From the NCBI GenBank assembly GCA_002286715.1, contig NSJX01000009.1, positions 249,966-313,965 of the forward strand: a stretch of 64,000 nucleotides of DNA. Direction: 5' to 3'. This stretch comes from Dentipellis sp. KUC8613 (Eukaryota > Basidiomycota > Agaricomycetes > Russulales > Hericiaceae). The translations under genes were made by a program, and so were the position numbers. Positions 25,172 to 32,783 of the stretch are shown here, piece after piece. Below the pieces are notes generated by a model. It had not been told where the DNA came from and ran no database searches. It saw only the letters and a list, made by a program, of their open reading frames with translations. The number at the start of each line of letters is the position of its first letter. Position 1 is the first letter of the stretch.

Positions 25172-26662
25172 CTAATGACGAGTAGGTACAGGCGGAAAAC
25201 AGCATATGGGACATGTGGAGTGGCGCAGAATGGCACGCGAGATGGCGCATGAGGGGCGGCGAGAGGGGCGGCGGGCGGGGTGGTGCAAGGAGCGCGCGAG
25301 GGGCAGCGCACGACGATGCGCGGGGCATGACATGCAGCTACTGGGACGCATGAGGCAGCGCGTGGGCCGCGCGTGAAGGACCGCGCACGACGACGCGTGC
25401 GGGAGCGCGCGGGGGGGCGTACAGGACGGCGCATAGGGTGTACAAGAGGGGGAATCAGCGGCGCACGCCAGCGATGGGATGCGTGGCGCACGAAACGGCG
25501 GGGCGATACGGTGCACGAGAAGGGGCGCACAGGGTGTGCGGGACGGACACGGGATGGTGCGGGAGCTGCACGCGAGATGACGCAGACGGCGCTCGGGACA
25601 GCGCAGACAGCGCGCCCGGGACGGCACACGGGATGTGGGGGATAGCGCGAGCAACGCACGGGATGTGCGGGCTGCAGTTGGGGTGGCGCGAGATGGCGTG
25701 CGACGGCGCGGCGCGCACGGGGAGGGCGTGCAGGGGCGCGGCACGTAGGGCGTACGGGGCCGCGTTGCATAGGGCGCACCGGGAGGCGGCGGGTGGGGCG
25801 CACGAGACGGCGTGCGAGGGATTCCGGCGGCGCACAACAGCGCACGCGAGGGACGGCGCAGGGCGACACACGGGGGCATCGGAGGGGCACACGGGGCTGC
25901 ATGGGCTGGCATCCAAGGGGCCCAGGCAGTGCACAGAGCAGCGCGCGAGGGCCAGTGCATCCTACGCGCGAGGGGCGGCGGTGCGTAGGGCGCACGAGAT
26001 GGCATGCAATGGCGCGTAGGGCGCAAGAGGGCGCATGCGAGGGGGGGCATAACGAGAGCGTGCACATGCAGCCCGGGCACGAGCGACGGCGACGGCGCAA
26101 GCGCGGACATGACGGCACAAGAGTAGAGGCGACAGCCTGAGCGGCCATGTAGCCCCCAATGTAGGGCGACGGCGCACGATTGTGTGGCGATAACGAGGGT
26201 GAGGAGGGCGAGGAGGAGGGCGTGCGTGAGGGCGAGGGCGATAGGGTGGGCATGCGGACGACGGTGCGGGCGGACTGGCAATACACAAGAGGGTGTACTC
26301 ACCTTGTTGCTACCTGGGCTGCATTCCCCTACTGCCCTATCCCTCGCGTTCGCATTCGTGGTCTTCTTGGAGGCTTGAATGTACGTTGCGAGTGCGTGCG
26401 GGGGTGTTGAGGTCGACGTGGCGACGACTGGTGAAAGTCGCGAGTCGCGCGTTTCCAAGTCAGGCGTAGGGAGAGTTAAGCTCGGAGTTTTGGACTCTCC
26501 AATGCCTCGGAACGTAGCATGATGTAGAAGTGCGGCAGGGACAGTGACGAGGGCAGCGGCGACGACTGAGAGGGCGGAGAGCAAGAGCGTCGGCGGCGCG
26601 CGCTGCTGCTGCAGGCGGTCGGCGCCACGTGTCCCGTCCCTGGGCCGCCATTGGGACCCCAT
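25172..26662 (-). other. Long stop-free low-complexity frame inside the element
   Basis: 496 codons open from an ATG within the right repeat (starting MGSQWRPRDGTRGADRL) through the GC-rich interior. Composition is dominated by Arg, Pro, Ala, Ser and Cys, repeating a degenerate unit of about 11-12 bp (roughly GGCGCACGGGAT on the plus strand). The left repeat encodes a matching start at 24370 in mirror orientation. There is no domain. High GC and repetition can explain the missing stops, so it is not annotated as a gene. Confidence 0.4.
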
Positions 26663-26852
26663 CAGTGCCCAAAAACGGTCGGGTCTGGAGAAATTTGTGT
26701 GCGCCGGAGAAGTTTGTGTGTGTGCCGTGTAGAATTTGTGTGTGGATGCGGCCGGTTCGGGAAGTTTCCGTGTCGGAAGCCGAAGTTTGTGTGTGTGTCA
26801 TCCGGACTAATTTACGTGTGTGGATGATTAAAGCATCAAAAAAACCGCCATA
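26105..26852 (-). repeat. Right terminal inverted repeat
   Basis: Inverted copy of the left repeat. The outermost 150 bp are almost identical to the left end; inner parts differ by substitutions and short indels, for example in the block near 26400-26470. The copies are therefore not freshly made even though the flanking 6-bp duplication is intact. Confidence 0.85.
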
Positions 26853-31148: not shown

Positions 31149-32692
31149 CTAGGCGCGCTTGGCGGGCTGGCGCGGACCGCCTGTAGTATGCGCTCGTTAG
31201 ACTCGGAGATGAAGACGGAGAGGAGAAGAGGACGGGCGTACACGGGCCGCCGAGGCAGGGGATGGTGGCTTCCTCGCGCTTCGGTTGGCGCGGGCCGCCT
31301 GCGAATGGTGATGGTGAATGGGTCTTCATAGGAACCAGCAAAAGGCATGGATGCACGTACACGGGCCACCCAGGCAAGGAATAGTGTCCTCCTCGCGCTT
31401 AGGCTCCTGAAGTTGAGGCTCGGGGATGGGCTCGCGCTTGGGCTGGCGCGGGCCGCCTTCAGGACATCACGATAGCGGTAAGCATTTCTTCATATGTGCA
31501 TACAGGGTTGCCAGCAGGACAAGCACTTACATGGGCCGCCGAGGCAGGGGATGGTGGCTTCCTCGCGCTTAGGCTCCTGAAGCTGAGGCTCGGGGATGGG
31601 CTCGCGCTTGGGCTGGCGTGGGCCACCTTTCGTACGCGAGTCAGGAACGGGACATAACACAATCGAAAAGGGGAGAAAAACACACATGGGCCACCGAGGC
31701 AAGGGATGGTGTCCTCCTCGCGCTTAGGCTCCTGAAGCTGAGGCTCGGGGACGGGCTCGCGCTTCGGCTGGCGCGGGCCGCCTGTTNNNNNNNNNNNNNN
31801 NNNNNNNNNNNNNNNNNNNNNNNNNNNNNNNNNNNNNNNNNNNNNNNNNNNNNNNNNNNNNNNNNNNNNNNNNNNNNNNNNNNNNNNNNNNNNNNNNNNN
31901 NNNNNNNNNNNNNNNNNNNNNNNNNNNNNNNNNNNNNNNNNNNNNNNNNNNNNNNNNNNNNNNNNNNNNNNNNNNNNNNNNNNNNNNNNNNNNNNNCACC
32001 GAGGCAAGGGATGGTGTCCTCCTCGCGCTTAGGCTCCTGAAGCTGAGGCTCGGGGACGGGCTCGCGCTTCGGCTGGCGCGGGCCGCCTGTTAGTGATCGT
32101 GGTCAGCGAGTGCACAAGGAAATAGGCGGGCGGGTTCGTACAAGGGCCGCCGAGGCAGGGAATAGTCTCTTCCTCACGCTTGGGCTGGCGCGGGCCACCT
32201 GCGGAGTATATTGATAAATTCTGAAACTGTCTGTAGTCGTGAGAGTACCACTTACAGGGACCACCGAGGCAGGGAATGGTGTCTTCCTCGCGCTTGGGCT
32301 GGCGTGGTCCGCCTACAGAGTGGATTGAATGAGTACTGAACTCCTCTGAGGTTGTGGAAGTGTTATTTACAGGGTCCGCCGAGGCAAGGAATGCTGTCAC
32401 GGACAACGAAATTCAATGATGAGTTTGTCAACTTGTAGTGCATGCAATTTGTACTCACACTTCGGGAGCGGGAGCACTTGATACGCAATTGTCGTCAACG
32501 GGCTGCATAGGCAATAGTAACAAAATCGAATAATGACTTACACTTCGCCCGCCGCGGCAACTGGCATGGGACACACATGCATCAGCTCGCTGCAACATAT
32601 CGTTCCATGCTGGTGACTAGTGGCTTACCGGGAGCAGCGAAGACAGCGCTTGAGGTCGCGGCGAGGACAGCGAAAAGGGCGAGCAGCTTCAT
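31149..32692 (-). CDS. Secreted Kex2-processed repeat-peptide precursor
   Basis: Exons, all joining in phase: 32692-32629, 32560-32544, 32502-32459, 32393-32371, 32312-32256, 32198-32142, 32086 into the N gap, 31781-31686, 31626-31531, 31456-31361, 31298-31242, 31180-31149 (stop TAG). Exon 1 is a clear signal peptide (MKLLALFAVLAATSSAVFA). A short acidic pro-region follows (PVAAAGE, PVDDNCVSSAPAPEV). Repeat exons are exactly 57 nt (one unit, CGPRQPKREEDTIPCLGGP, with variants EEE and EEA) or 96 nt (the same unit with EPVPEPQLQEPKR or the EPI variant inserted). All internal repeat introns are phase 1 and split the Cys codon. The last exon gives CGPRQPAKRA. Cutting after each Lys-Arg would yield EEDTIPCLGGPCGPRQP-type peptides after C-terminal trimming. 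Layout matches Kex2-processed repeat proteins; activity is unknown. The gap makes the copy number a minimum. Confidence 0.9.
31242..32312 (-). repeat. Tandem array of repeat-unit exons
   Basis: At least seven exon-intron units repeated in the same direction, with exons of 57 or 96 nt and introns of 55-74 nt. Exons are strongly conserved while introns are not, the opposite of what a non-coding satellite would show. The 96-nt units flanking the gap are identical over their readable parts. Confidence 0.9.
31787..31996. other. Assembly gap of 210 N inside the repeat-peptide gene
   Basis: Run of N between two nearly identical 96-nt repeat exons. The size would fit the last 6 nt of one exon, one complete 96-nt exon and two introns of about 55 nt, if the gap length is a measured estimate rather than a placeholder. 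Confidence 0.95.
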
Positions 32693-32775: not shown

Positions 32776-32783
32776 CTTTTATA
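32776..32783 (-). promoter_or_regulatory. TATA box of the repeat-peptide gene
   Basis: TATAAAAG on the minus strand, about 85 bp upstream of the start codon. It is a textbook TATA box at a suitable distance, suggesting a regulated or strongly expressed gene. Confidence 0.65.

Follow-up and report, generated by a model that had tools for sequence, protein, structure and literature searches.

The locus described here raises the question of what is encoded by a small, many-exon gene with a repeated two-cysteine core, and to which class of secreted fungal peptides its products would belong. The gene is on the minus strand of the window (the whole stretch of DNA analysed, 64,000 nucleotides) and spans positions 31149-32692, exactly from start to stop codon (ATG to TAG). 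This is the interval given by an earlier sequence-only reading, whose observation of a signal-peptide-like start followed by cysteine-core repeats is confirmed as a whole. We consider it likely that the gene encodes an Agaricomycete precursor of a KEX2-processed repeat protein (KEP) with a new sequence type. The gene is laid out as follows (window coordinates):

32776-32783, minus strand: candidate TATA box TATAAAAG, 84-91 bases before the ATG, putative promoter element
32629-32692, minus strand: exon 1, start codon and signal-peptide-like MKLLALFAVLAATSSAVFAAP, judged by eye
32544-32560, minus strand: exon 2, part of the leader (donor position uncertain by 2 bases)
32459-32502, minus strand: exon 3, part of the leader (donor position uncertain by 2 bases)
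32371-32393, minus strand: exon 4, with VIPCLGGPC, the first core, directly joined to the leader
32256-32312, minus strand: exon 5, 57 nt, GPRQPKR-EEDTIPCLGGPC
32142-32198, minus strand: exon 6, 57 nt, GPRQPKR-EEETIPCLGGPC
31997-32086, minus strand: exon 7, 90 visible nt, GPRQPKR-EPVPEPQLQEPKR-EEDTIPCLG, interrupted by the gap
31787-31996, no strand: run of 210 N, the sole N run in the window
31686-31781, minus strand: exon 8, 96 nt, GPRQPKR-EPVPEPQLQEPKR-EEDTIPCLGGPC
31531-31626, minus strand: exon 9, 96 nt, GPRQPKR-EPIPEPQLQEPKR-EEATIPCLGGPC
31361-31456, minus strand: exon 10, 96 nt, GPRQPKR-EPIPEPQLQEPKR-EEDTIPCLGGPC
31242-31298, minus strand: exon 11, 57 nt, GPRQPKR-EEATIPCLGGPC
31149-31180, minus strand: exon 12, GPRQPAKRA and the stop codon TAG

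Twelve exons are visible, and joining them gives a protein of 245 letters, four of which are X over the N gap. The first core is in exon 4, each of exons 5-11 contributes one unit and exon 12 supplies the tail, and the start of the precursor looks, by eye, like a typical ER signal peptide. For exons 2 and 3 the model is ambiguous, since the frame is maintained with either of two donors and the residues of the leader depend on which is used. The TATA candidate motif has three matches in the window compared to 0.44 expected, and three or more were obtained in 2 of 100 shuffles.

All complete repeat exons measure 57 or 96 nt, i.e. multiples of three, and have symmetric phase-1 borders, so the reading frame would survive the gain, loss or skipping of copies, and the array may have grown by whole-exon duplication. 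The second Cys codon is split by the intron in all seven readable repeat introns. Exon 7 and exon 8, whose visible portions are 215 bases apart, are identical over 90 of 90 visible bases, which makes a recent duplication that the assembly did not resolve likely. If the gap size is true, the gap probably hides the remaining six bases of exon 7, then an intron, a further 96-nt unit and the greater part of the intron behind it. Across the genome assembly (34.1 Mb, 171 contigs) a 20-base motif from the core was found seven times, always at this locus, and not once read backwards.

Translation of the joined exons bears out the KEX2-type repeat layout that had been proposed. Of 12 Lys-Arg (KR) pairs in the precursor seven are part of RQPKR and four of QEPKR, and the last is part of RQPAKR; the description of the units as ending in Pro-Lys-Arg therefore applies to all but the last, where Ala precedes Lys-Arg. 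IPCLG is present eight times, in keeping with the "at least eight copies" reported before: seven continue to GPC and one is interrupted by the N gap. Seven of the eight cores read TIPC, and the first, fused to the leader, VIPC. Among the KR-delimited Cys segments five are complete 17-mers (three with EED, one with EEE and one with EEA), as expected for the 17-residue two-Cys peptide of the sequence-only reading, and the others are an EEA form with a QPA end and an EED copy broken by the gap. Computed cutting at KR yields not one but two peptides, EE[DEA]TIPCLGGPCGPRQP and EP[VI]PEPQLQEP, of which the second has four visible copies and had gone unnoticed, as had the N gap. Basidiomycete a-type (farnesylated) pheromones end in a C-terminal CaaX box, and no such box is present at the C-terminus of this protein (CGPRQPAKRA). 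The start EP-[VI]P-EP, found in 4/4 visible 11-mers and in none of the seven Cys segments preceded by a KR, agrees with the repeated XP/XA pairs by which the available text of PMC9769878 characterises STE13 sites.

To compare the repeats we used six complete units (exons 5, 6 and 8-11; 54 common sites), exons 4, 7 and 12 being incomplete and excluded. Fifteen of the 54 sites vary, 14 of these at third codon positions (hypergeometric P 1.3e-8; six units), one of 18 residues varies, and the pairwise pN/pS is 0.043 (97 synonymous and 12 other differences; the pairs are not independent). The position of the variable sites and the low pN/pS argue that the repeats are coding and did not arise by chance. 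Real splicing predicts conserved exons and diverged introns, and the observed pattern fits: exon similarity ends at GT for 7/7 readable donors and resumes after AG for 7/7 aligned acceptors (the exon 8 acceptor, beside the gap and excluded, is also AG), and only intron pair 4-5 lies above shuffles (z 4.8), the other 20 of 21 pairs having z values from -1.5 to 1.8. Branch-site motifs are weak; the stricter motif is missing in four of the seven repeat introns and intron 10 has neither motif. Retention would introduce an in-frame stop in three of the seven repeat introns (4, 9 and 10) and a frame shift for introns 6, 8 and 11. Intron 5 (32199-32255, 57 nt) has no in-frame stop, and its retention would merely lengthen the peptide.

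The genome has candidates for the enzymes that such a precursor would need: a kexin-type gene, represented by one locus with subtilase and P-domain exons, and a DPPIV-type gene, represented by adjoining DPPIV_N exons. We propose that the precursor would enter the secretory pathway, that kexin would cut after each Lys-Arg and that a KEX1-type carboxypeptidase would trim off Lys-Arg. The first product would be the 17-mer EE[D/E/A]TIPCLGGPCGPRQP, in which the two cysteines (C-x4-C) most likely form a small disulfide loop; on the encoded sequence, the best reading of the released product is minimally modified 17-mers, probably disulfide-closed. The monoisotopic masses computed for the disulfide forms are 1765.776 (EED), 1779.792 (EEE) and 1721.787 (EEA), with 2.016 to be added for the reduced peptides. 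From the second product, the 11-mer EP[V/I]PEPQLQEP, a STE13-type dipeptidyl aminopeptidase would trim the X-Pro pairs to leave QLQEP (perhaps with pyro-Glu), of computed mass 613.307, or 596.281 in the pyro form. Since single-Arg cleavage is reported for other KEPs (PMC9769878, available text), GPR-QP may be an additional cleavage site within the 17-mer. The earlier interpretation thus stands with respect to layout and peptide, and is refined by the placement of the host among the Agaricomycetes, on the strength of its STE3 matches and of the UTP20 comparison below, by the second, STE13-type peptide and by the arrangement of one exon per repeat. A bolder and rather doubtful extension is an exon-modular KEP, with one peptide per symmetric exon, a loop-closing Cys codon completed by splicing and a peptide dose that would change as exons are added, lost or skipped, the product being a disulfide-ringed C-x4-C secreted signal of hormone size in a mushroom.

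The neighbourhood was searched against Pfam with 30 of the 393 frames of at least 80 aa in the window, which gives a partial view, and the following were recognised:

10.5-11.4 kb: dynamin (Pfam)
18.3-18.9 kb: cation-ATPase N-terminus (Pfam)
37.5-43.0 kb: UTP20 (Pfam)
50.7-53.8 kb: GCN1-type gene (Pfam)

As judged from these 30 frames, the surroundings of the peptide gene do not look like a biosynthetic cluster, the recognised neighbours being housekeeping genes. An open frame at 25175-26797 (541 aa) has no Pfam or PDB match.

The sequence-only reading recognised the core from no described family and proposed to search core and unit for fungal homologues. Searches of a protein database found no relative: the 245-letter protein gave no match at E ≤ 10 among 8000 candidates scored, and its front 117 aa none at E ≤ 10 among 1293 candidates, for a method that compares only proteins of similar length with 5-residue words in common and that distant relatives may escape. 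Small spliced genes may also be poorly predicted in the source proteomes, which limits a homologue search. As a control, a UTP20 exon from the window gave 212 matches at E ≤ 1e-30. Of the 120 matches listed 40 carry a species name, and we take all of these to be Agaricomycetes; among the matches listed the best with a name is Amylocystis lapponica at 59%, two further rows reach 60-63%, and closer species may be missing since proteins above about 2220 aa were not candidates. This control speaks for the Agaricomycete coverage of the database and not for the presence of peptide-type genes. Pfam gave no match to the 245-letter protein, which with the protein searches agrees with a core outside recognised families. 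In viral contigs three pattern matches were obtained, none of them confirmed, and in the fungus's own genome all nine matches of the front 117 aa at E ≤ 10 fall within the peptide locus. A PDB search returned one match (E 0.67), judged to be chance. The strings CLGGPC, IPCLGG and TIPCLG were not found in a literature text search, and the supplements of KEP surveys may list the gene or a relative; nor did titles and abstract openings yield a description of KEP repeats on separate exons. The gene hence appears, from these comparisons, to be one orphan so far. Of the "new family" suggested before, the new sequence type stands; the KEP class is already described, and the comparisons above turned up no relative.

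Among the alternatives to a KEP of a new type, an alpha-pheromone-like signal peptide sensed by the fungus's own GPCR survives best, and we regard it as unlikely. The repeats, KR sites and X-Pro/X-Ala pairs are shared with ascomycete alpha-type pheromone precursors, some mature ascomycete alpha-pheromones also have two cysteines, e.g. RFCHLPGQGCSK, and alpha-like KEPs are reported from Basidiomycota, one with two Cys (PMC6339444, as far as its available text goes). Here, however, the loop is C-x4-C, the X-Pro pairs are on the 11-mer and not on the Cys peptide, and Trp is missing. There are no STE2 matches in the genome, and the same search gave none in any control genome, so absence does not follow. 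STE3 gave at least 18 exon matches on another contig (C1:2327903-2347652), about five genes by position and probably the pheromone-receptor mating locus, such that the peptide gene and the STE3 receptors are on different contigs in the assembly.

It is quite improbable that the gene provides structural or surface peptides like the fibril-forming Rep1 peptides of Ustilago, which are also repeated secreted peptides with KEX2 sites and are cited as a precedent in the available text of PMC9769878; the units here are short, rich in Pro, Gly and Glu and free of aromatics, non-assembly being judged by eye.

Very improbable in our view is a dikaritin-type RiPP, whose released cores would be cyclised and modified by UstYa/UstYb oxidases from genes at other loci. 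Dikaritins (ustiloxins, phomopsins, asperipin-2a) likewise derive from a KEX2-cut repeat precursor, and the genome has at least 16 UstYa exon matches. Against this, the dikaritin cross-link needs Tyr in the core and the visible precursor has neither Tyr nor Trp, the few Pfam-recognised neighbours are housekeeping genes, and in place of the adjacent UstYa/UstYb genes of dikaritins there is no UstYa match in the window, the closest on the contig being about 73 kb away, as the claim of no UstYa-like enzyme nearby would have it. Two UstYa-type exon matches lie on opposite strands on the contig of the peptide gene (C161:355417-357436), about 73 kb from it, and two stretches close to these matches were found to contain no tandem repeats. 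An open-frame scan for KR repeats in 14 stretches around UstYa matches found none and equally missed the peptide gene used as control, so it is uninformative. In the available text of PMC7329392, DUF3328 (UstYa) genes are near 103 of 1680 (6.1%) Basidiomycota KEPs, and 7878 KEPs in 838 types are reported together with 2560 stand-alone ones (Umemura 2020); an orphan KEP without UstYa is therefore ordinary for the class.

There is an equally slight chance that an intact secreted acidic Pro-rich repeat protein is made with its Lys-Arg pairs unused, for any repeat carries along whatever residues it has on duplication, but KR is invariant in the six compared units despite diverged third positions and a kexin-type gene is present in the genome.

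The reading as a KEP thus places the gene, by its sequence, as a probable new type inside an established class with many orphans. KEPs are described across fungi including Basidiomycota (PMC7329392), and Agaricomycete KEPs, among them some that have STE13-type motifs, give rise by processing to peptides; KEP-derived peptides are widespread in fungi and have largely unknown functions (PMC9769878; both as available to us). In the same study C. cinerea KEPs were expressed in Pichia pastoris. In Coprinopsis, according to the accessible part of PMC9769878, knocking out six KEPs led to no apparent phenotype, and its authors propose that the peptides act towards other organisms; by analogy, we would guess at such a role, or one in signalling, for the peptides described here. 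Judged against the main texts of KEP studies two features stand out as unusual, the Cys loop and the layout of one exon per repeat: cysteine is not mentioned in those of PMC9769878 and PMC7329392 and, in the available text of PMC6339444, comes up with pheromones, and the layout is not discussed in those of PMC7329392 and PMC6339444 ("exon" and "intron" are absent) or PMC9769878 ("intron" once, about cDNA). Because the gene is at a single locus, its two-Cys core is strongly conserved and the masses of its products can be predicted exactly, it makes a clean target for peptidomics, and the exon-per-repeat layout could hide such genes from single-open-frame scans, as the simple scan that missed this one illustrates.

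In shape only, with no sequence relation claimed, the predicted 17-mer is like the vasopressin/oxytocin-type nonapeptides, which have a C-x4-C ring followed by a short tail, in ring size and tail. Among fungal peptides, Trichosporon oleaginosus, a basidiomycete yeast, has an alpha-like KEP with a likewise repeated two-Cys peptide, QSWGGCGGRGTPCW, which differs by a longer C-x6-C loop, Trp at both ends and the STE13 signature on the Cys peptide itself (PMC6339444, available text). The same source (Le Marquer 2019) lists, among motifs common to at least four species, one from Basidiomycota, XSDW, which differs from the present core. With Agaricomycete KEPs, as far as these are described in the available texts of PMC9769878, PMC7329392 and PMC6339444, the peptide gene shares a start that resembles a signal peptide, short peptides of nearly the same sequence set between KR sites, X-Pro pairs of STE13 type on one peptide of the two and the lack of a UstYa partner close by; it differs from them in its unmatched core with the two-Cys C-x4-C loop and, by comparison with main texts and not with gene structures, in having a symmetric exon per repeat with the intron inside a Cys codon.
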